This document shows positions 4,322-20,665 of a stretch of DNA of 64,000 bases, piece after piece (the stretch's first letter is position 1; every line of letters starts with the position of its first letter). The DNA lies in the NCBI GenBank assembly GCA_016200005.1, contig JACQFP010000022.1, forward strand, positions 248,001 through 312,000. Direction: 5' to 3'. A program made the position numbers and the translations under genes. The notes below the pieces were generated by a model that ran no database searches, was not told the DNA's origin, and worked only from the letters and a program-made list of their open reading frames with translations. The DNA comes from Verrucomicrobiota bacterium. Lineage in GTDB: Bacteria; Verrucomicrobiota; Verrucomicrobiia; Limisphaerales; PALSA-1396.

Positions 4322-6382
4322 ATGAAACAATTCCTGATGCTGCTCCTCGCCGGTTTGGGCTGGTTTGGCGTGCTTGACGCTCAACGGGCGTTGAGTGCGA
4401 CGGTGATCGTCAACATGAGCGGCTACCAGTTTGTCCCGCGCGATTTGACAATCAACGTCGGCGACACGGTGACCTGGACGAATCTGGACTTCACGACGCA
4501 CGACACGGTGAGTGGCGTCAATGGCATTCCGAGCAATCCGCTCATTTGGAAAAGCCCGTTGTTCGGATTCGGTGGGAGATATTCCTTTACCTTCACCAAC
4601 ACACCCGTTGGAAAGCGCATTCCCTATTACTGCACGCCGCATTGGCGCACGTTTGGGATGATTGGATCGATCACGGTCGTCGTGCCGAACGCGCCACCGT
4701 TGGTTTCAATCGACAGTCCCACCAACGGCGCGTCGTTCATTGCGGGCGACGACGTGTTTGTCCAGGCGTTCGCCTCGGACAGCGATGGCACAGTCGCCCG
4801 TGTCGATCTTTCTGTGAATGGCAACTTGTTGCTCTCGCTTACCAATCCGCCTTACACCATGACGCTGACCAATATCGCCGTTGGCAGTTACTCACTGAGC
4901 GCGGTTGCGGTGGACAATCAAGGCGCGTCCTCCAGCCCCGCAGTCGTCAACTTTGGCGTGGGGCCGCCGGTGCCGCCCGCAATCATTTCCCAACCACAGA
5001 ATCTTGTTGTTCGAGTCGGCGCGTCCAATGCTTTCGCCGTTGTTGCGACGGGCGTACCGCCGCCAACCTACCAATGGCGATTTGAGAACAACGATATTCC
5101 CGGCGCTACCAACTCCGTTTATCAAATCACCAATAGCCAGCCAACGGATGCCGGCACCTACTCCGTCATCGTCAGCAATCGCGCCGGCTTTACGAACAGT
5201 CAACCCGCGACGCTTCGCCTGGATTCGACGCCGCCCACATTCCTCCTCACCACTTCGCCGCCAAACTTCGACCGTCGCCGCTCGTCCCAAATCACCTTGG
5301 CCGGTACTGCCAACGACGACATTGGCTTGGCTCAAGTGGAACTTATCATCAACGGTGCGACCAACCTTGCCGTCGGCACCACCAACTGGGTGTTTACGAA
5401 CGATTTGCCGGCCGGCCCCAACGCGATCCTTTTGCACAGTGTCGATCTGGCCGGCAATGTTTCGTCCGACGACTTCCGCTTTTTCACTTATGTTGTCGAG
5501 GCGCCACTGACCGTACGCACGAACGGGCCGGGGAGCGTCACGCCTGACCTCGATGACCGCGACCTGGAGATCGGACAGGTTTACGGCCTCAGAGCCGTTC
5601 CGGGTTTTGGATTTATTTTTGGTGGGTGGGAAGGCGTGGCCAATTCCAATTACGCGAGCGTTAATTTTGTGATGCAGTCCAATCTCGTTCTGACGGCCAA
5701 TTTTATTTCCAATCCGTTCGCGACGATCAATGGGACTTACGCCGGGCTGTTCTATGACACCAACGGCGTTGCGTCGAAGAGTTCAGGATTCTTTTCACTG
5801 CACGTTGACGGCTTCGGCGCGTTCAGCGGCGGGCTGGTTGTCGATGGCGGTCGTTCCCTGTTTCGCGGCCGGTTCGATGCGCACGGCCATGTCAAAGTTC
5901 CGGTGCTGCGGCGGCAACTTGCTCCCGTGGTGCTCACCCTTAATCTCGATTTGAGCAATACAACCGGGCGAATGGATGGCCAGGTCACTGCCGGCCAATG
6001 GTCGGCTGAATTGCGAGGAGACCGCTGCGTATTCCCAGCGCTCGCCAGTTCCCCATTGCCGACCGGAGCGGGGCCGTTCCTGCTGCGACGCCATGACAAC
6101 TCGATGGAAATCGCACGGGGCGTTGCGAAGATCAACCCATTCGGCCGCGTGCGCCTTCGCGGCAGTCTGAGCGATGGACCCAAGTTCAATATGACGACGT
6201 TCCTCACACCGAATGGCGATTGTCCTTTCTACGTTTCGCTCCAGGTCGGCAGCGAGACAATGATCGGCTGGCTGAATTTCGCGAACGTCTCGACTCCCGT
6301 TTACGGAACAAATCTGTTTTGGGTCAGTTCGGGAACCAACGGCTTCTCATTTCAGCTCGACGCTCTTTCCGCTCAACCCTGA
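4322..6382 (+). CDS. Secreted cupredoxin-Ig-InlB-repeat protein, paralogue of upstream gene
   Basis: 686 residues with a signal peptide (about 1-25). Residues 26-121 form a plastocyanin/cupredoxin domain: GDTVTWTN precedes His60, and Cys104, His107 and Met113 follow in YYCTPHWRTFGM, so all four type 1 copper ligands are present. After it come a bacterial Ig-like module (124-215), an Ig fold (218-300, YQWRFENNDIPGATN), a further Ig-like module (302-395), a divergent InlB B-repeat (398-460) and a C-terminal beta domain (462-686). The region from the Ig fold to the end parallels the previous protein (VLRRQLAP and GDCPFYVS occur in both), so this is a tandem duplication in which the N-terminal module differs: DNRLRE there, cupredoxin here. 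Copper binding is likely; electron transfer or copper capture outside the cell is inference. Confidence 0.82.
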   Translation: MKQFLMLLLAGLGWFGVLDAQRALSATVIVNMSGYQFVPRDLTINVGDTVTWTNLDFTTHDTVSGVNGIPSNPLIWKSPLFGFGGRYSFTFTNTPVGKRIPYYCTPHWRTFGMIGSITVVVPNAPPLVSIDSPTNGASFIAGDDVFVQAFASDSDGTVARVDLSVNGNLLLSLTNPPYTMTLTNIAVGSYSLSAVAVDNQGASSSPAVVNFGVGPPVPPAIISQPQNLVVRVGASNAFAVVATGVPPPTYQWRFENNDIPGATNSVYQITNSQPTDAGTYSVIVSNRAGFTNSQPATLRLDSTPPTFLLTTSPPNFDRRRSSQITLAGTANDDIGLAQVELIINGATNLAVGTTNWVFTNDLPAGPNAILLHSVDLAGNVSSDDFRFFTYVVEAPLTVRTNGPGSVTPDLDDRDLEIGQVYGLRAVPGFGFIFGGWEGVANSNYASVNFVMQSNLVLTANFISNPFATINGTYAGLFYDTNGVASKSSGFFSLHVDGFGAFSGGLVVDGGRSLFRGRFDAHGHVKVPVLRRQLAPVVLTLNLDLSNTTGRMDGQVTAGQWSAELRGDRCVFPALASSPLPTGAGPFLLRRHDNSMEIARGVAKINPFGRVRLRGSLSDGPKFNMTTFLTPNGDCPFYVSLQVGSETMIGWLNFANVSTPVYGTNLFWVSSGTNGFSFQLDALSAQP

Positions 6383-6392
6383 TTTGCTGTCC

Positions 6393-7094
6393 ATGACAAC
6401 GCTGATAATCGCCACGCGCAACGCCCACAAGGTCCAGGAAATCCGCGCCATTCTCGGCGAGAACCTCGATTACCTGACCCTGAGTGATTTTCCGAACGCA
6501 CCCGCTGTTGTGGAAGATGCCGGCAGCTTTGCGGGCAACGCCACAAAGAAGGCAGCTCAACTCGCCCGATGGATTTCCAACTCACGCATCACGCATGGCG
6601 CATCACGCATCAACTTGCCCGCCTTCGTGCTGGCTGACGATTCCGGCCTGGAAGTGGACGCCCTCAACGGCGCGCCCGGCGTGCATTCAGCGCGGTTTGC
6701 CACCAACGGCGGCGCTGCCAATTCATCCGACGTGGCGAATAACACCAAACTGCTTGGCTTGCTCCAGAACGTTCCGACGGAGAAACGCGCCGCCCGCTTT
6801 CGCTGTGTGCTCGCGTTGACGCCAGTCCTCGAGCCTGCTGCTGGAACTGCCTCACCCGTTTGCAGCGCGGATGAATTTGAACTGAACACCGAATTGTTCG
6901 ACGGCACGTGTGAAGGCCGAATTGGATTTTCGCCAAGCGGGCAGGGGGGATTCGGTTACGATCCGCTTTTCATTCCCGGAGGCCATCAACAGACCTTTGC
7001 TGAACTGGGCGAGAGCGTCAAAAACCAACTGAGCCACCGCGCGAAAGCACTGCTGAAACTGAAAATCCGATTGCATGCGAGATCGGTTGGCTGA
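6393..7094 (+). CDS. rdgB: RdgB/HAM1 family XTP/dITP pyrophosphatase
   Basis: Hydrolyses non-canonical purine nucleoside triphosphates (XTP, dITP, ITP) to the monophosphates, keeping them out of DNA. The 233-residue protein begins TLIIATRNAHKVQEI, the nucleotide-binding start of the family, and carries FVLADDSGLEVDALNGAPG (catalytic Asp region), a GFGYDPLF motif and a C-terminal SHRAKAL. The ATG at 6393 was taken; the TTG at 6384 adds three residues without reason. It starts 10 bases after the preceding stop. Residues around 63-74 contain an extra Ser/His/Arg stretch encoded by tandem TCACGCATC units (about 6577-6615) that the family lacks; the frame is preserved, so it is probably a harmless surface insertion. 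Confidence 0.93.
   Translation: MTTLIIATRNAHKVQEIRAILGENLDYLTLSDFPNAPAVVEDAGSFAGNATKKAAQLARWISNSRITHGASRINLPAFVLADDSGLEVDALNGAPGVHSARFATNGGAANSSDVANNTKLLGLLQNVPTEKRAARFRCVLALTPVLEPAAGTASPVCSADEFELNTELFDGTCEGRIGFSPSGQGGFGYDPLFIPGGHQQTFAELGESVKNQLSHRAKALLKLKIRLHARSVG
6577..6615. repeat. Tandem TCACGCATC-type short repeat inside rdgB
   Basis: Three near copies of CGCATCACGCAT-like units in about 39 bases, translated as part of RdgB. The same wording, reverse complemented, occurs inside suhB at 7723-7762. Confidence 0.6.
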
Positions 7095-7288: not shown

Positions 7289-8128
7289 TCAAAAATCCAC
7301 ACGCAGCTTGGGCCGCAGCAACCCGTTCGTAGCAATCAGTTGGAAAGCATGTTCGCCACGAACTGCACGATGCCAGAATTCTCCGCCGGCGCATTCCAGG
7401 ATCAACCCACCCGCGGCGATGTCCCACAACCGGATGTTCGCTTCGATGTAGGCATCGAATCGTCCGCTCGCCACATAGACCAAGGCCAACGCTGCCGATC
7501 CCATCGAACGCACCTTGTGCGTCCGACGGGCGAGTTGATTGAAAACCGGCAGCATCGTGTCCAGTGTCGCCTTACTCTTTGCGAAACCCATCACGACGAT
7601 CGCTTCTTCGAGACGCCGACGGTCGCTGACTTTGATGATCCGTCCATTTAAACGCGCTGGCTGTCCGCGAATCGCCGTCCAGAGTTCATTGCAAAACGGA
7701 TCATAGACAACGCCGGCGATGGTTTCGTGATGCGTGAACCGTGAAGCGTGATGCGTGGTGACCCCATGGGGTGAATTCCGCTCTTCGCGCTCCGCCCTCC
7801 TCGCCTGTAACGCGATGGACACGCAGGCGTGCGGAATCCCGCGGGCGAAATTGACCGTGCCATCAATCGGATCAACCACCCAGCGCTGCTCGGCGTTCAG
7901 ATCGCCAACGACACCTTCCTCGCCGAGAATCGGGATGTTTGGGAAGGCCGTAAGCAGAATCTTCTCAATCAATTTCTGGCAACGAACATCGAGGGCAAGC
8001 CGGATGTCGTATCGCGTGGCCGCGTGAACTTCTTTGGTCCGATACCGGTGCTGACGCATCAACCCTCCGGCCGCGTGCGCCGCTTTGACGGCGCAGGCGA
8101 GGAACTTGTTTTGTTCGGTAAGTTTCAT
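7289..8128 (-). CDS. suhB: Inositol monophosphatase family protein
   Basis: 279 residues from an ATG at 8128 (MKLTEQNKF); a longer frame starts at a TTG at 8161 that nearly abuts valS. The family motifs are complete: GEEG (metal-binding Glu), DPIDGTVNFARGIP (the Asp-Pro-Ile-Asp-Gly-Thr core) and WDIAAGGLILECAGG. It is a magnesium-dependent sugar/inositol phosphate phosphatase of the cytosol; the exact substrate (myo-inositol-1-phosphate or another) cannot be read from the sequence. Just before GVVYDPFCNELW there is an unusual HGVTTHHASRFTHHE stretch encoded by the TCACGCATC-type repeat at 7723-7762; it lies between the second and third motifs and probably forms a loop. It follows valS on the same strand with about 30 bases between and may be co-transcribed. 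Confidence 0.9.
   Translation of the reverse strand: MKLTEQNKFLACAVKAAHAAGGLMRQHRYRTKEVHAATRYDIRLALDVRCQKLIEKILLTAFPNIPILGEEGVVGDLNAEQRWVVDPIDGTVNFARGIPHACVSIALQARRAEREERNSPHGVTTHHASRFTHHETIAGVVYDPFCNELWTAIRGQPARLNGRIIKVSDRRRLEEAIVVMGFAKSKATLDTMLPVFNQLARRTHKVRSMGSAALALVYVASGRFDAYIEANIRLWDIAAGGLILECAGGEFWHRAVRGEHAFQLIATNGLLRPKLRVDF
7723..7762. repeat. Short GTGATGCGTG-type repeat inside suhB
   Basis: About 40 bases with GTGATGCGTG twice (7727-7736 and 7748-7757) around GTGAACCGTGAAGC. It is the reverse complement of the unit seen in rdgB and is translated as a His/Ser/Thr-rich insert. Confidence 0.6.
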
Positions 8129-8157
8129 CCTGGTTTGGCGCGACCGACGAAATTCGC

Positions 8158-11100
8158 TCAACCTGCCAGGCTCTCCAAAGCCGTCTTGACGTGAACGAGT
8201 TTCGCCTGCCAGCCGGCGAGGCGTTGCTGATGTTCCAGGAGAACCTGGGGCGGAACTTTCTGGGTGAAGCCTGGGTTGGCGAGTTTCTGTTCTACCTTCA
8301 CGATCTCGGCTTCATACTTTTCCTTCTCCTTCGTCAGACGGGCGCGTTCGGCTTCGACATCAACGAGTCCTTCCAGGGGCAGGAACAATTCGCCCATCGG
8401 CGTGTGCGCGGTGGGTGTGCCCTTCTTCGCGGCGTAGTTCTCGTTGATCTCGATGTTTTCGGCGTTCAACAGAATCCTGATGACTTCGCGGTCGTGCGGG
8501 AGAATTTCACGGCTCGGCTTGAGGACGAACTTTACTTTCTTACCGGACTGGATATTGCCGATGCGACGCAGGTTGCGTCCTTGCGTGACCACCTCGTATT
8601 TATCGTTGGCGAATTCGAGATAACAATCATCGAGCCCGTAGGCATCGCGGAACTCGCCTTCAAACGGCTTGGGCCAAGGCGCATTCATAATGGTCTGGCC
8701 GCCTTGACTCTCTGGCATGTCCTCGGCGTAACCCATTCCGTGCCACAACTCTTCCGTGATAAACGGTAGAAATGGATGGAACAACCGCAGCGTGTGCGAG
8801 AGCACAAAATCAATCACCGCGAGCGTGTTGGCCTTTCGCGCAGCATCGTTGCCCCTCACCCCGTCCCTCTCCCCATCGGATGGGGAGAGGGTGGCCGAAG
8901 GCCGGGTGAGGGGAGCTTCGGACAGTTGCCTGCTCAACACCGCTTTGCTCGCCTCGACATACCAATCGCAATACTCGCTCCAGAAGAAACGATAGAGCAC
9001 TTGCACGGCAGCACTGAAATTGTATTCGGCCAGCGCGGTGGTGATTTCTCGGATGGCGTCGTTAAGCTTCAGCAGAATCCACTTGTCGTCGCTTGTGAGC
9101 AAGCGCGGGTCAATTTCACCCTGAATCTCGAATTCGGCGGACGAGGCGTCCGCCGCTGCGCCCGGGGCGGGCGCGCTCCCCTGCATTTGGCGGAAGCGGC
9201 AGGCGTTCCAGAGCTTGTTGCAGAAATTGCGGCCCAGTTCCACGTCCTTCTCGTCGAAGAGCACGTCCTGGCCGAGCGGCGCGCTGCGCATCGTGCCGAA
9301 ACGAATCGCGTCCGCGCCGTACTTCGCGATCAGATCGAGCGGATCGGGCGAGTTGCCAAGGGACTTCGACATCTTGCGGCCCTGCTTGTCGCGGACGATG
9401 CCGGTGAAATAGACGTTGCGGAACGGCAGGTCGCCCATGAACTCGTAGCCTGCCATGATCATGCGCGCGACCCAGAAGAAAATAATTTCCGGCGCGGTGA
9501 CGAGGTCGGTGGTCGGGTAGAAGGCTTGAAGTGTTGCGTTCTTGGAGTCTTGAGATTTGTCACCCGTCCAACCCATCGTGGCGAACGGCCAGAGCCAGGA
9601 ACTGAACCACGTGTCGAGGACGTCTGGGTCTTGGGTGAAACCTGCCTGATCTAATTCTTTTGCCATGGAAGGATTCGTCGTCAGCGCGTGAAGAATAAAT
9701 CCATCAGAAGTCTTTAGAACCTCGAAAGTAATTTCTGAAACTGTCACTGTTTTGCCGTGACGTTCTAACGTTTTTGAATCTGGGCTGACGCGAGGCTTTG
9801 ACAATCGTTTGCCGTCAGGAATTTCAACTCCGCAAAGCACAAACGCATTCTCAACCATATTTTCACGAACGGGATGGTCACGAAAATTTGCACCATCAAT
9901 CTTTAAACTCCACACCGGAATCCGATGCCCCCACCAAAGCTGGCGGCTGATGCACCAGTCCTGAATGTTCGTCAGCCAGTGGTCATAAACCTTCGCCCAC
10001 CGCTGCGGGTGGAAACGCATTTTGCTGGGGAGCGCGCCCGCCCCGGGCGCAGCGGCGGACGCCCCGTCCGCCGCATCGTGGCGTACGGAAGAACCAGCCG
10101 TCGCCAAAGTCTCGACGCGCTCGGTGCTGCCCGCGAGGGCGCGGGCAGCGACGCCCGAGGCGGGCGTGCTCCCTTCCTGCTCCTCGCACGCCTTGGATTG
10201 CTCCACCGCCGGATACTTCAAAAACCATTGCTCGCTCAAGCGTGGCTCGATCGGCACACACGCGCGCTGACTGAAACCAATTTTGTTTTCGTACGGCTCC
10301 TCCTTCTCCAACGCGCCAAGTTCCTTGAGCTTTTCCACCGCGACTTTGCGCGCCTCGAAACGATCAAGACCCGCGAGGTCTTTGCCCGCCAGATCATTCA
10401 TCGAACCGTTTGGATTCATGATGTCCACGGCGGCGAGCTTGTGGCGTTGGCCGATCTCGAAGTCGTTTTTGTCGTGCGCGGGTGTCACCTTGAGCACGCC
10501 CGTGCCGAACTCGAAGTCCACGTATTCGTCGCCGATGATCGGGATGAGCTTCTTCTCCATCGGTAATTCCGCCGGCAGCGGACGAATTGCGTGCTTGCCG
10601 ATGAGGTGCGCGTAGCGCGGGTCTTTCGGATTCACCGCGATGGCGGTGTCGCCGGGAATCGTTTCCGGCCGCGTCGTGGCGATGGTGAGCCAGATTTTTC
10701 CATCTGGTCCGGGGAGCGCGCCCGCCGCGGGCGCAGTCGAATGCGCCCCGCGTTCGACATCGGGCGGCGCGAGAGTTCCGGTCAGCGGGGCGCTGACCGG
10801 TGCAGCCGGGGCGGCTGCGCTCCCCATTTCAACCTCGACTTTGAAGTAGTAGAGAAAACCTTTCTGCGATTCCATGTCCACCTCCTCGTCCGAGAGCGCG
10901 GTGAGTGATGCCGGACACCAGTTCACCATGCGTTTGCCGCGATAGATGAGGCCCTTCTTGTAAAGTTCGACGAAAACCTTTTGCACGCAGCGCGAATACT
11001 CCGGGTCCATCGTGAAGCGTTCGCGCGTCCAATCGCACGAGCAGCCGAGCTTCTTGAGTTGCTGGATGATGATGCCGCCGTGCTTTTCCTTCCACGCCCA

Positions 11101-11460
11101 AACGCGCTTGAGGAATTCCTCGCGCCCGAGATCATGCTTGGTTTTTCGTTCCTCCTTCTTGAGCGCCCTCTCGACCTGCACCTGCGTGGCGATGCCGGCG
11201 TGGTCCGTGCCGGGCAGCCAGAGGACTTCCTTGCCGTCCATCCGCGCCTTGCGGGCGAGGATGTCCTGGATGGTGTTGTTGAGCACGTGCCCCATGTGCA
11301 ACACGCCGGTGACGTTCGGCGGCGGGATGACGATCGAATACGCCGGGCGCTTCTCGCTCACGCGCGCCGGGTCGGCGGTGAAGCAAGCGTTGCGCTGCCA
11401 GAAGTCATACCATTTGTCCTCGACGGACTGCGGTTCGTAGGCTTTGGGAATTTCTGCCAT
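8158..11460 (-). CDS. valS: Valine-tRNA ligase with four repeat-derived insertions
   Basis: Charges tRNA-Val with valine in the cytosol. 1100 residues from the ATG at 11460 (MAEIPKAYEP; the TTG at 11466 is rejected). Class I signatures are HMGH at 55-58 (PPNVTGVLHMGH) and KMSKS at about 696-700; the C-terminal coiled coil (VDVEAERARLTKEKEKYEAE) is present. Bacterial ValRS is usually 880-960 residues. The excess is explained by Ala/Gly/Pro-rich or low-complexity inserts at about 213-250, 430-479, 760-775 and 851-871, each matching a GC-rich palindromic repeat in the DNA (10711-10825, 10027-10173, 9136-9181, 8852-8913). The reading frame stays open through all four and conserved motifs flank them, so the enzyme is likely active. 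It is essential in bacteria and there is no second copy here. Confidence 0.96.
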   Translation of the reverse strand: MAEIPKAYEPQSVEDKWYDFWQRNACFTADPARVSEKRPAYSIVIPPPNVTGVLHMGHVLNNTIQDILARKARMDGKEVLWLPGTDHAGIATQVQVERALKKEERKTKHDLGREEFLKRVWAWKEKHGGIIIQQLKKLGCSCDWTRERFTMDPEYSRCVQKVFVELYKKGLIYRGKRMVNWCPASLTALSDEEVDMESQKGFLYYFKVEVEMGSAAAPAAPVSAPLTGTLAPPDVERGAHSTAPAAGALPGPDGKIWLTIATTRPETIPGDTAIAVNPKDPRYAHLIGKHAIRPLPAELPMEKKLIPIIGDEYVDFEFGTGVLKVTPAHDKNDFEIGQRHKLAAVDIMNPNGSMNDLAGKDLAGLDRFEARKVAVEKLKELGALEKEEPYENKIGFSQRACVPIEPRLSEQWFLKYPAVEQSKACEEQEGSTPASGVAARALAGSTERVETLATAGSSVRHDAADGASAAAPGAGALPSKMRFHPQRWAKVYDHWLTNIQDWCISRQLWWGHRIPVWSLKIDGANFRDHPVRENMVENAFVLCGVEIPDGKRLSKPRVSPDSKTLERHGKTVTVSEITFEVLKTSDGFILHALTTNPSMAKELDQAGFTQDPDVLDTWFSSWLWPFATMGWTGDKSQDSKNATLQAFYPTTDLVTAPEIIFFWVARMIMAGYEFMGDLPFRNVYFTGIVRDKQGRKMSKSLGNSPDPLDLIAKYGADAIRFGTMRSAPLGQDVLFDEKDVELGRNFCNKLWNACRFRQMQGSAPAPGAAADASSAEFEIQGEIDPRLLTSDDKWILLKLNDAIREITTALAEYNFSAAVQVLYRFFWSEYCDWYVEASKAVLSRQLSEAPLTRPSATLSPSDGERDGVRGNDAARKANTLAVIDFVLSHTLRLFHPFLPFITEELWHGMGYAEDMPESQGGQTIMNAPWPKPFEGEFRDAYGLDDCYLEFANDKYEVVTQGRNLRRIGNIQSGKKVKFVLKPSREILPHDREVIRILLNAENIEINENYAAKKGTPTAHTPMGELFLPLEGLVDVEAERARLTKEKEKYEAEIVKVEQKLANPGFTQKVPPQVLLEHQQRLAGWQAKLVHVKTALESLAG
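8852..8913. repeat. Palindromic CCCTCACCC element inside valS
   Basis: 62 bases with terminal inverted repeats CCCCTCACCC / GGGTGAGGGG and an inner palindrome CCCTCTCCCCATC / GATGGGGAGAGGG. Translated as part of ValRS (LTRPSATLSPSDGERD). Relatives occur at 17374-17531, 17771-17812 and, degenerate, 25168-25222. Confidence 0.85.
9136..9181. repeat. GC-rich repeat inside valS, copy 1 (half element)
   Basis: GGCGGAC-GAG-GCGTCCGCC hairpin followed by GCTGCGCCCGGGGCGGGCGC and GCTCCCC. It is a reverse-complement match to the first part of the element at 10027-10173. It encodes GSAPAPGAAADASSAE in ValRS. Confidence 0.8.
10027..10173. repeat. GC-rich repeat inside valS, copy 2 (full element)
   Basis: 147 bases beginning GGGGAGCGCGCCCGCCCCGG and ending GGCGGGCGTGCTCCC, so the ends are inverted repeats. 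Inner hairpins include GGCGGACG/CGTCCGCC-like and GCTGCCCGC/GCGGGCAGC arms. The insert encodes about 49 Ala/Gly/Ser-rich residues. Confidence 0.82.
10711..10825. repeat. GC-rich repeat inside valS, copy 3
   Basis: 115 bases bounded by GGGGAGCGC (10711-10719) and GCGCTCCCC (10817-10825), with an inner CCGGTCAGCG/CGCTGACCGG palindrome. It shares its outer ends with the element at 10027-10173 but differs inside. Translated as an Ala/Pro-rich insert at about 213-250 of ValRS. Confidence 0.82.
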
Positions 11461-11517
11461 TTGCAAGCGCGAACGCTACCGAAATATTTTCCGTCGTGCA
11501 ACTGTCGCGGCAACTTT

Positions 11518-17315: not shown

Positions 17316-17705
17316 TCATTTCTTCGGCTGGCTGTGTTCGGAGGCGAGAGAACGTCGCTGGTTTTTGTCCGGTTCCCCCTCACCCCGGCCCTCTCCCGCT
17401 GGGAGAGGGAGAATTGCTGTCAGGTTTTGGAGATGGCGTGAGTCGGAGATGGCCGGACGCGCGTTCGCCAAATCAGAAGCTCGCGCTTGCTGTTCCCTCT
17501 CCCGGCGGGAGAAGGTCAGGGTGAGGGGGAGTCGTGAATCGTGAGCGTGCTCAGGATTTACTCCGCCGGTTTCCTCCATCAGCACCCGCATCGAAGGCGT
17601 GAGCGTGTCCTCGTATTGACCGGAACGCACGGACCAGATGAAGCCAAAGAGAAATAGCGTCGCCATAACCAGGCTCGCGAGGATGAGAATCAGGATCACG
17701 CTCAT
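17316..17705 (-). CDS. ccoS: CcoS family protein with repeat-derived C-terminal extension
   Basis: 129 residues starting at the ATG at 17705, which overlaps the ccoI stop codon (ATGA). The first 45-50 residues are a complete CcoS: a membrane helix (ILILASLVMATLFLFGFIWS) and the motif VRSGQYEDTLTPSMRVL. CcoS is usually 45-70 residues. The remaining 75-80 residues coincide with a composite palindromic repeat (17374-17531) and read as LPLTLTFSRREREQQ and LPLPAGEGRGEGEP. CcoS is needed for haem/copper insertion into cbb3 oxidase. It ends 13 bases before ccoNO begins. Confidence 0.85.
   Translation of the reverse strand: MSVILILILASLVMATLFLFGFIWSVRSGQYEDTLTPSMRVLMEETGGVNPEHAHDSRLPLTLTFSRREREQQARASDLANARPAISDSRHLQNLTAILPLPAGEGRGEGEPDKNQRRSLASEHSQPKK
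17374..17531. repeat. Composite palindromic CCCTCACCC element inside ccoS
   Basis: Outer ends are inverted: CCCCCTCACCCCGGCCCTCT at the left and AAGGTCAGGGTGAGGGGGA at the right. Each is linked to an inner hairpin (CCCTCTCCCGCTGGGAGAGGG-like and CCCTCTCCCGGCGGGAGAA-like) with about 78 bases between. It is the same family as the element in valS. Confidence 0.82.
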
Positions 17706-20371
17706 GACACCGCCTCCGGAATCGAGCGACCGCCGAGCGCGCGGAACTCGCCGACGTTTGCAGAATGATTCTCCCTCTCCCTTTCGGAAAGGGAGAGGGA
17801 CGGGGTGAGGGTTTGCTCTGAGTTGTCCGAAACAACACGATCCGCGAGAAGCCCGCTCCGTCGCGCCGCCCAAGTCGTCACGCCGCACGCAAACAAAACC
17901 ACACTCGCCGAACTCAGCGGCATCAACACCGCGCAAGTGAGTGGCGAAAGCAATCCCGCCGCCGCGATGCTCACGCCAACGATGTTGTAGAGCGACGAAA
18001 TGCCGAAGCTGATCCGCACAATCCATGCGCTGCGCCGGGCCAGAGTGAGAATTTCGAAAAGCTGCGGTACGTGTCCGGCATCGAGAATCACATCGCTCGC
18101 GGGCGAGAACGCGCCGATCTTCTCCACCACCGCCACGCCCACGTCGGCCTGCTTGAGCGCGCCCGCGTCGTTCAACCCGTCACCCACCATCATCACCGTC
18201 TTGCCGCATTCCTGCAGGCGACGAATAAAGCCGAGTTTGTCGAGCGGGCTTTGATTGAAATTCAACTTCGCGTCGTTGCCGAACAGCTCAAGGAAACACG
18301 CGCGCTCGCGTTCGTTGTCACCGGAAAGCAACGCCAGTTCGTAACGACCTGCCAGCCGGCGGATGAGTTGATCTGCCTCCGGCCGCAGCGAACTCGATAG
18401 CACGAACGCGCCGCGATGCCGGCCATCAATCGCCACGTGGACGACGCTGCCGCTTCCCTCGTAGCAGCCGACGTGAGGAGGCTCTGACTTAATGTCTTGG
18501 TAGGTGGAAGTTAGAGCCTCCTTACGTTGGCTGCTACCAAGCGCGCCGCGCGACTCCAGCCACACCCGCGAGCCAAGCCAGATTTCGCGTCCGTTGACCT
18601 GGCCTTCGATACCACAGCCGGGAGTTTCGAGAAACGAGCGCACTGGTTCAGGAAATAGCCTGCTCCCGAATGATTCGCTGATACGCACCGAGTGCGGATG
18701 TGTCGAGTGCCGGGTAAGTGAAAAAATGCAGGTCCGCTCCGCCTCGTTTAGCTCCGCGCCTTCAAACTTCACGGCCTTCGCGCCCGTCGAAGTGAGCGTG
18801 CCAGTCTTGTCGAAGACAATGGCGTCCACCAGCGCGAGACGTTCCAGCACAAGCGCGTTCTTGAGAAACACGCTGATCTGCGCGAGCCAGCGTTGCGCTG
18901 TGCCGAGCGTGAACGGCGCGGCCAACGCCAACGCACATGGACACGCAACGATCAGCACGGACGTGAATGCCTTGACACCGCGCGGCAAGTTGCCCGAGGC
19001 AATCCAAAAAGCCGCCACCGCTACCGCGATTGAAATCACGATCAGCGTGAAGCGGCGGCTGTAACGGTTTGTAAGCGTATTGAAGTCTTGATTGCGGTTT
19101 TTGCGGAACGTTTCGTGATTCCAGAGTGAAGTGAGATAGCTTTGCGAAACCGCCTTGAGCGTTTCGATTTCGATGGCCGAGCCGATCTGCTGGCCGCCCG
19201 CGTAAAGATGATCGCCCTCACTTCTAGCCACGGGTTCAGATTCGCCGGTGACGAAGCTGTAATCGATGAACGCCGGCCCGCTGATGAGTTTCGCATCGGC
19301 TGGAACCAATTCACCATTCCGGATGATGATGCGGTCACCGATCTGGAGTTGGGAGAGCGGGACACGTTCTTCAGTTTTGTTCTGACTCCTGCGCGTCACC
19401 GAGAGTGGGAAGAAAGATTTGTAATCGCGATCAAAGGCCATTCGCTCATAGGTCTTCGCTTGGAACATACGACCGCAGAGCAGAAAGAATATCAATCCCG
19501 TCAGCGAATCGCAGTAGCCTTCGCCAGTGCGTGTGATGATCTCGTAGGCGCTCTCGCCGTAAATCGCGGCGAGGCCAAGGGCGATGGGCACATCGAGCGT
19601 GAGAACGCGCTGACGCAGCGAGAGCAGTGCGGACTTCCAATAATCCGACGCGCTGAAAATCACAACCGGCAGCGCGAGCGCGAGACTGGCCCAGCCGAAG
19701 AGAGTTTTGAAATTGCCGCCGTTGAAGCTATTCAACCCAAAGTATTGTGGGATGCTGAACAGCATGATATTGCCGAACGCAAATCCCGCTATGCCGACTT
19801 GCAACCAGGCTCGCTTGCGGGCGGGGCCGCCTTTCGGCTTATCCAATTCGTCGAAGGTGAGCGTCGGCTCATAGCCGATGGACGCGAGCAGCGCCACCAG
19901 TTCGCTGAGTTTGAGTTTCCTCGTCGCGAACGTGATGGCGACTTCGCGTCGGGCGAAGTTGACTTGTGAACGGCCAACGGCGGGATGCAGCCGGAATAGA
20001 TTTTCCAGCAACCACACGCAGGCGATGCAGTGAATGGCCGGCACGTGGAACGTGACCTTGCTTTGCTTGCCGTCCGTGAAATCCAGCAAGCGTTGCAGCA
20101 AAGCCAGCTCGTCGAGGTAAGCCCATTGCTCGCTGGGCGTGGTTTTCTGGATGCGCGCGCCGGGATTCCGCCTTAGATCGTAGTAGTGGCCGAGGCCAGT
20201 CTCGGTCAGCAGATCGTGAACCACCAGACAGCCGTTGCAGCAGAACAGTTTTTCATTCCTTGCGAACGAGTCGTCCCGACAACGCTGTCCGCAATGGAAG
20301 CACGCTGCCTTCTCCGACGATTCTCCGTCGCAGACGGTCGTGTTGATTCTATTCGCTGTTACCTTTGTCAC
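17702..20371 (-). CDS. ccoI: CcoI/FixI family copper-translocating P-type ATPase
   Basis: 889 residues from a GTG at 20371. An N-terminal Cys-rich module (CFHCGQRC and FCCNGC, 24-48) and a heavy-metal-associated domain with CIAC at 115-118 precede eight membrane segments, the CPC metal-transport motif at 477-479, the phosphorylation site DKTGT at 521-525 and GDGLND at about 730. This is the complete CcoI set; the pump exports copper for cbb3 oxidase maturation. Two repeat insertions are translated: residues about 611-638 (palindrome at 18461-18537, between DKTGT and GDGLND in the nucleotide-binding domain) and the C-terminal end (LTPSLSLSERERENH, 17771-17812). The stop overlaps the ccoS start. 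It is the first gene of the cco cluster; 294 bases separate it from cimA and hold nothing I recognise. Confidence 0.95.
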   Translation of the reverse strand: MTKVTANRINTTVCDGESSEKAACFHCGQRCRDDSFARNEKLFCCNGCLVVHDLLTETGLGHYYDLRRNPGARIQKTTPSEQWAYLDELALLQRLLDFTDGKQSKVTFHVPAIHCIACVWLLENLFRLHPAVGRSQVNFARREVAITFATRKLKLSELVALLASIGYEPTLTFDELDKPKGGPARKRAWLQVGIAGFAFGNIMLFSIPQYFGLNSFNGGNFKTLFGWASLALALPVVIFSASDYWKSALLSLRQRVLTLDVPIALGLAAIYGESAYEIITRTGEGYCDSLTGLIFFLLCGRMFQAKTYERMAFDRDYKSFFPLSVTRRSQNKTEERVPLSQLQIGDRIIIRNGELVPADAKLISGPAFIDYSFVTGESEPVARSEGDHLYAGGQQIGSAIEIETLKAVSQSYLTSLWNHETFRKNRNQDFNTLTNRYSRRFTLIVISIAVAVAAFWIASGNLPRGVKAFTSVLIVACPCALALAAPFTLGTAQRWLAQISVFLKNALVLERLALVDAIVFDKTGTLTSTGAKAVKFEGAELNEAERTCIFSLTRHSTHPHSVRISESFGSRLFPEPVRSFLETPGCGIEGQVNGREIWLGSRVWLESRGALGSSQRKEALTSTYQDIKSEPPHVGCYEGSGSVVHVAIDGRHRGAFVLSSSLRPEADQLIRRLAGRYELALLSGDNERERACFLELFGNDAKLNFNQSPLDKLGFIRRLQECGKTVMMVGDGLNDAGALKQADVGVAVVEKIGAFSPASDVILDAGHVPQLFEILTLARRSAWIVRISFGISSLYNIVGVSIAAAGLLSPLTCAVLMPLSSASVVLFACGVTTWAARRSGLLADRVVSDNSEQTLTPSLSLSERERENHSANVGEFRALGGRSIPEAVS
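17771..17812. repeat. CCCTCACCC-family half element at the 3' end of ccoI
   Basis: A perfect inner palindrome CCCTCTCCCTTTC / GAAAGGGAGAGGG followed by ACGGGGTGAGGGT. One terminal repeat is present and the other is missing, so it is a half copy of the valS-type element. Confidence 0.8.
18461..18537. repeat. Long inverted repeat inside ccoI
   Basis: Two 30-base arms, 18461-18490 (starting GTAGCAGCCGACGT) and 18508-18537 (ending ACGTTGGCTGCTAC), are near-perfect reverse complements around a 17-base loop. The left arm differs at only about two positions from the sequence at 57016-57045. Confidence 0.88.
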
Positions 20372-20665
20372 ATCACAAAACCATCGTTATTATTTCCAGA
20401 AGCGTGCTGAAATGAACGCGCCCTGACGCTCGGTTCATAACCAAGCCAGGTATCGTCAGGAGAAATCCTTCATCCGCTTGGGGAATAAAATGTGGCATTC
20501 GAGGCGAATGAACCAAACCTTCCTTGCCAAAAACTTGCCATATTTTGCGAACCAACTGGCGTCACGTCTGATGACGACCAATAGGGTGTGAATAGAGAAG
20601 AGGATGGCAACCGTGCGTTTCAACGGCGGCTAACGCTATGGAACGGATTGGATAAGGTTCCGACT

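Follow-up and report, generated by a model that had tools for sequence, protein, structure and literature searches.

How can an essential gene take up several palindromic repeats and still encode its protein? The question is posed by valS in the window analysed here, a 64,000-nucleotide stretch of a Verrucomicrobiota genome. We refer to the source genome of the window as G000 and to a same-genus relative as G001; other G and L numbers denote further genomes and loci. The gene (8158-11466, minus strand) encodes a valyl-tRNA synthetase (ValRS) of 1102 amino acids with the domains tRNA-synt_1, Anticodon_1 and Val_tRNA-synt_C. The original prediction held that valS stays open through four repeats, and the gene is indeed a single unbroken frame. 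The HMGH and KMSKS motifs are intact as predicted, and their positions match when numbering begins at the ATG located two residues past the listed TTG start. The excess length of the enzyme had been assigned wholly to the four repeats. They account for part of it, about 130 amino acids over the usual loop lengths, but not for all: a fifth place, residues 531-605, is about 64 amino acids longer than the same place of G035. Inserts at this fifth place are, as a rule, not accompanied by palindromic DNA.

The limits of all four repeats agree with the prediction. The site S1 holds a full but shorter element of a family we call A (10711-10825, 115 bp, residues ~215-255), and S2 a full family A element (10027-10173, 147 bp, residues ~431-480). 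S5 contains half a family A element, a GGGGAGC tag with two hairpins, on the minus strand (9136-9181, 46 bp, residues ~762-780). The insert at S6 is a palindrome of family C, CCCCTCACCC...GGGTGAGGGG (8852-8913, 62 bp, residues ~845-870), with the peptide ...PLTRPSATLSPSDGERDGV...; no strand is assigned to the elements at S1, S2 and S6. Inverted ends, expected of every repeat, are missing from the 46-bp one, which is half of the long element. The idea of one element entering valS four times did not hold, as the repeats belong to two unrelated families: the GGAG-tagged, hairpin-rich family A, with two full copies and one half copy, and family C, represented by the 62-bp repeat. Folded as DNA, the coding strands of the 62-, 46-, 147- and 115-bp repeats have z-scores of -6.75, -2.90, -6.58 and -4.11 against 200 dinucleotide shuffles; folded as RNA under the same scheme, the scores are -5.92, -1.46, -6.90 and -4.41, so that the 46-bp repeat is only weakly special as RNA.

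Both families are dispersed across the source genome. A full copy of family A runs from GGGGAGC through hairpins H1 and H2, a variable linker, H3 and H4 to GCTCCCC, and its pattern GGGGAGCGCGCCCGCC is found in 92 places against 12 for the reversed control (at most two mismatches). Copies were delimited by their two ends in 37 fetched loci out of these 92 places; 32 were found, and removal of a false match at C63:89165 left 31 full-length inverted doublets with a tag at either end. The two tagged ends were the search rule, but the common length was not, and 17 of the 31 copies measure 146 or 149 bp. On average 4.26 of the six frames of a full copy (71%) are open, compared with 2.79 in same-base shuffles, and many insertions would therefore not stop translation if they were in phase. 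The original prediction had proposed either selection for an open inserted frame or tolerance of the peptide as a surface loop; with 71% of frames open, strong selection is not needed, and the tolerated loop fits better. Only four of the 31 full copies lie in called genes, two in valS and one each in carB and metH, and the other 27 are outside. The pattern of family C, CCCTCACCCCGGCCCTCTCCC, occurs in 150 places against one in the control (200 against 148 under a looser pattern), and the GTAG-tagged family V in 180 against none. In many other genomes of the order, the short GC-rich pattern of family A is about as frequent as its control; exceptions include G003 (103 against 59), G011 (46 against 16) and G023 (44 against 13). 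These counts were therefore set aside as a measure of how far the family has spread.

A gene count over 620 kb (source contigs C22 and C6, home-made gene calls, weak ones included, coding fraction 0.884) placed 17 of 23 C copies, 16 of 32 V copies and 5 of 11 A copies inside called genes; by these counts the repeats lack the extragenic location of REPs and REPINs. Two further families on the same contigs, P and P2, were considered as gene-borne and set aside, since 1 of 4 and 4 of 7 copies lay in genes and every such call was weak. Scanning of 19 repeat-bearing proteins, ValRS included, returned a Pfam match for 17, among them a PrpD-like protein, an HrpB-like helicase, protein kinases and a P-type ATPase. 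In-frame repeats of the same families as in valS are found in carB, metH and other genes. Within the window, the metal P-type ATPase gene (17705-20386, minus strand) carries a family C repeat (17767-17811) and a GTAG-tagged family V repeat (18457-18537) in frame. The genes neighbouring valS contain in-frame repeats of the CACGCATCACGC type, at 6583-6612 in a Ham1/RdgB-like gene (6384-7094, plus strand) and at 7728-7757 in a gene of the inositol monophosphatase family (7289-8161, minus strand). In metH (L243:7527-12092, source contig C30), a family A element separates the first two domains, and ASRLTPHASR-like and SQPSTLKSQL-like peptides are encoded further on.

The GGGGAGC...GCTCCCC ends of family A are terminal inverted repeats, a feature of MITEs of DDE transposons. 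Target-site duplications, a further feature of such MITEs, were not detected at the 31 copies: flanking words of 1-8 bases are identical about as often as expected, the largest excess being 3 observed against 0.97 expected at 3 bases. The source genome has four matches to Y1_Tnp. At one of these loci (L128, source contig C43:5500-9146), a frame of 320 amino acids contains the Y1 transposase domain, and GGAG-tagged inverted hairpin doublets of ~120-130 bp lie on either side of the domain; the right-hand doublet overlaps the stop-to-stop frame in its upstream part. The tag-and-arm pattern of these doublets is present in 36 places in the genome, compared with 12 in the control, and their stems are other than those of family A. 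Exact motifs of families A, V or C were not found around the four Y1 matches within ~1.5 kb on each side, one of which ends at a contig edge; two GGGGAGC words in the Y1 loci are both in other contexts. By BLAST, a C-like stretch is ~1.4 kb distant from the Y1 domain of C43, and the domain on C6 has a C copy at ~2.1 kb, too far for either to be accepted as a flanking repeat. No copy was seen to be polymorphic.

To follow the sites through relatives, we collected 111 ValRS sequences; 31 come from 39 genomes (L104 of G019 was left out), and the other 80 are the best of 585 in named GTDB records. Of the 111 sequences, 103 are distinct. The closest relatives among those best 80 are labelled Verrucomicrobia, Pedosphaera or Limisphaerales. 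Complete sequences range from ~880 to over 1,300 amino acids, and some others end at contig edges. Insert positions cluster at a few sites in the 103 sequences, and the four loops are filled repeatedly by seven repeat classes. The class labels are pattern rules drawn up after viewing the sequences, and they leave 39 of the 112 occupied cells as "other". S1 is occupied in 22 of 102 rows (A 7, R 6, C 4, V 1, other 4) and free of inserts in 80; S2 is occupied in 40 of 103 (A 15, N 3, other 22, the last including inserts of just 6-7 residues) and free in 63. At S5, 20 of 102 rows bear an insert (half A 9, R 4, A 1, other 6) and 82 do not, and at S6 the numbers are 30 of 101 (T 7, V 6, E 5, C 4, A 1, other 7) and 71. 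Classes T and E consist of simple repeats and are not hairpins of the classic kind; L195 is unlabelled at S1 because of unread bases. The half copies at S5 recur in other genera, as in G000. On a FastTree tree built with insert columns removed, the labels require at least 17, 24, 18 and 26 changes at S1, S2, S5 and S6, counts that do not separate gain from loss.

Structured inserts are concentrated at the same four sites. Coding-strand RNA energies of insert segments of at least 12 amino acids, where one insert may yield two segments, were compared with 60 dinucleotide shuffles, and 60 of 110 segments at S1, S2, S5 and S6 had z below -2 (14/32, 23/32, 9/21 and 14/25, respectively), against 6 of 105 at other grouped sites (0/6, 2/35, 4/61 and 0/3). 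By this measure the segments of G000 score -7.7 at S2, -2.73 at S6, -1.6 at S5 and 0.11 for the scored part of S1; its S5 and S1 segments do not fall below -2, yet the whole elements do as DNA. The number of occupied sites rises with the density of C and V repeats (Spearman 0.71 over 30 genomes with G011 excluded, a correlation that is not phylogeny-independent): of the 21 genomes that carry more than one C or V copy, 15 have an insert at one or more sites, and so does one of the nine with one copy or none. A test on independent pairs found six, too few for power, with averages of 1.0 for the relation, 2.1 against and 2.9 equal, a balance that would point, if anywhere, away from the relation.

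Several sequences depart from this picture. The ValRS of L205 (Verrucomicrobiaceae) and L206 (Prosthecobacter) have ~320-330 extra residues at S1 without strong DNA structure, which are perhaps an additional domain, and L205 probably owes its R label at S1 to chance. The valS of L106 (G030) has an S2 insert of 179 amino acids, also without strong DNA structure. In G011 (L110) the frame is broken at ~621-684, outside the four sites, either by assembly error or in reality; the row was retained in the tree.

The placement of the inserts in the protein was addressed with an AlphaFold2 model based on 43 sequences (the window protein and 42 of 63 usable loci; mean pLDDT 70.3). The pLDDT falls below 50 at residues 216-248, 426-485, 765-777 and 848-869, and the four inserts are almost wholly coil. 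A HMMER alignment to ValRS of T. thermophilus (1GAX) breaks at 216/258, 419/482 and 844/877 and has gaps at ~768-781, which correspond to the four inserts. Neither property is confined to them: pLDDT is below 50 also at 487-501, 535-576, 617-633, 643-663 and in five short stretches, and the alignment breaks at 521/606 as well, the fifth, unstructured place. The very low model confidence, the coil and the alignment breaks or gaps agree with the predicted position of the inserts in loops, and by the model these would be surface loops.

In-frame palindromic repeats and intragenic REPs are already known. Rickettsia palindromic elements (RPEs) are described in PMC2229807 as palindromic repeats of 105-146 bp, located between genes and also, in frame, within conserved protein genes, with an RPE-interrupted Gmk being a translated and active enzyme. 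The predicted likeness to RPEs is supported in behaviour, as repeats inserted in frame and in loops of conserved proteins, here in valS, carB, metH and others. The host, however, is not a member of Rickettsiales, and in this comparison by description the present system differs by its phylum, its GC-richness and the use of four loops of one enzyme by several unlike families across the order. Another likeness is to REPs, since family V starts with GTAG and family A carries a GGAG tag ahead of its hairpins H1 and H2; Opitutus terrae, which figures in this comparison, is a verrucomicrobium. GTAG/CGTC-tagged REPs, as characterized in PMC3733652, consist of a tag and a hairpin, form head-to-head doublets and have subfamilies with complementary stem changes; intragenic REPs are reported there in genes including tRNA synthetases, O. 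terrae being the species with the most intragenic GTAG REPs, and two Xanthomonas species have different REPs at about the same site of recB. Family A differs from GTAG/CGTC REPs by its GGAG tag and two hairpins per half, and the valS inserts differ from intragenic REPs in that unlike families reuse the same sites across many genera and in the stem covariation at an orthologous coding site described below. REPINs are presented in PMC3116915 as inverted doublets of tagged hairpins placed in extragenic space. The Y1 domain with flanking GGAG-tagged doublets resembles a REPIN/RAYT system, whereas family A was not found beside a transposase and many copies here are intragenic. An open-access literature search retrieved no paper joining "valyl-tRNA synthetase", "repetitive extragenic palindromic" and "insertion", the nearest among the matches listed being PMC3733652; among these matches we found no report of many unlike families filling the same loops of one essential enzyme across an order, or of covariation at an orthologous coding site.

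The valS inserts are probably miniature non-autonomous REP-like hairpin elements that spread genome-wide, entered the gene in frame and were retained in four tolerant loops. The tags, the inverted doublets, the lack of target-site duplications, the four Y1 matches and the doublets on C43 lead us to propose that the elements were moved as single-stranded tagged hairpins by an HUH/Y1 transposase of RAYT type acting on the tag and the hairpin. Copies in rigid or conserved parts of valS would have been lost, and those in the four apparently disordered surface loops kept and presumably translated as 15-50 extra residues, near neutral for the enzyme. Whatever repeat families a lineage carries would then refill the same loops. 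Such inserts would scan an essential enzyme for insertion sites by natural means, in a record where separate lineages mark the same few tolerant loops and hint at where proteins accept foreign pieces. They also allow a long-standing question, whether palindromic repeats in frame are neutral passengers or give rise to new segments of proteins, to be asked of GC-rich elements in a host other than Rickettsia.

A different origin, in which the segments would be ancient extensions peculiar to ValRS and passed on by descent, with the palindromic DNA a side effect of coding rich in Ala, Gly and Pro, appears very improbable. Under the original prediction of insertion, relatives were not expected to share the same segments by descent with unrelated DNA, and they show empty sites or unlike peptides derived from other palindromes. 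In G001, where the orthologues of rdgB, suhB, valS and the open reading frame at 4322 lie together on one contig, S1 and S2 of valS are empty, S5 holds a half element with stems different from those of G000, and S6 a short tandem-like insert; the inositol monophosphatase gene has an insert in one loop in both genomes, with unlike peptides. Single sites hold unlike peptides and repeat classes, copies of the repeats exist elsewhere in the source genome, and folding exceeds that of dinucleotide shuffles, all of which speaks against descent. Part of S5 may nevertheless be inherited, as the same 15-residue excess is found in seven rows from at least five genera; for S1, S2 and S6 the descent explanation is largely refuted. 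Somewhat less unlikely, though still doubtful, is that the loops are hit by insertion into, or recombination with, resident palindromes and not as the sole tolerant places. The tail LPGPDGKI that follows the S1 insert in G000, G010, G018 and L133, while the palindromes of G000, G010 and G018 differ, would fit such exchange, as would the 94% complementarity of the S5 copy of G000 to part of the S2 copy in the same gene. It is countered by the rarity of structured inserts at other grouped ValRS sites, and by the position of all four sites in low-confidence loops at 1GAX breaks or gaps, as tolerance predicts.

In an alignment of 61 of 64 family A halves from the source genome (57 distinct; the C30 right-end half was left out), 93.0% of 855 cells are paired against a shuffled mean of 71.0%, with 218 two-sided changes against 78, a significance that shuffles overstate because the copies share descent. 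Sliding the partner abolishes the signal. At S5, seven half elements that share one position and come from at least five genera (7 of 9 rows; G037 and L170 were excluded for length) are paired in 92.3% of 91 cells against 74.1% in shuffles and have 17 two-sided changes against 6.5, while six pairs have a two-sided change, a number attained in 82 of 500 shuffles. The peptides at this site differ, being GSAPAPGAAADASSAEFE in G000 and GSAGDSPAVSGDSPEIFE in G001, and judging from these sequences the hairpin seems to be conserved more closely than the peptide. Pairing maintained despite changes in sequence and peptide would suit hairpins that are kept for use in valS mRNA or DNA, in translation pausing, mRNA processing or topology. 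We regard such a use as improbable, given that each of S1, S2, S5 and S6 is free of inserts in most ValRS rows, so that the gene works without them, and that the same families are present in unrelated genes. The loops of valS thus offer a place to separate the keeping of a nucleic acid fold from the keeping of a peptide.

Among hairpin elements retained in tolerant loops, covariation might arise through template switching between the arms of inverted repeats, which is described in PMC8794818 and PMC8604942 as homogenizing the arms and creating compensatory changes, in coding DNA too; by analogy it is a possible cause of the covariation of family A stems. The S5 stems of G001 were not found elsewhere in its assembly (82% complete). 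They were dismissed as a present G001 repeat family after their matches in seven genomes proved to be valS itself and the valS of G015 only. This favours change in place rather than a fresh copy of a present family; an extinct family is possible. More tentatively, and with some doubt on our part, hairpin elements in genes may not be frozen: both stem arms might be rewritten at once, by template switching or structure-based re-insertion, so that the DNA fold is inherited while the peptide is replaced, and the ValRS loops would be long-lived landing pads exchanged among unlike families. On the tag strand of the family A halves, G-T mismatches number 17 against 4 A-C mismatches (53 of the 61 rows in register), an excess that gives a weak hint that the fold of one strand matters.
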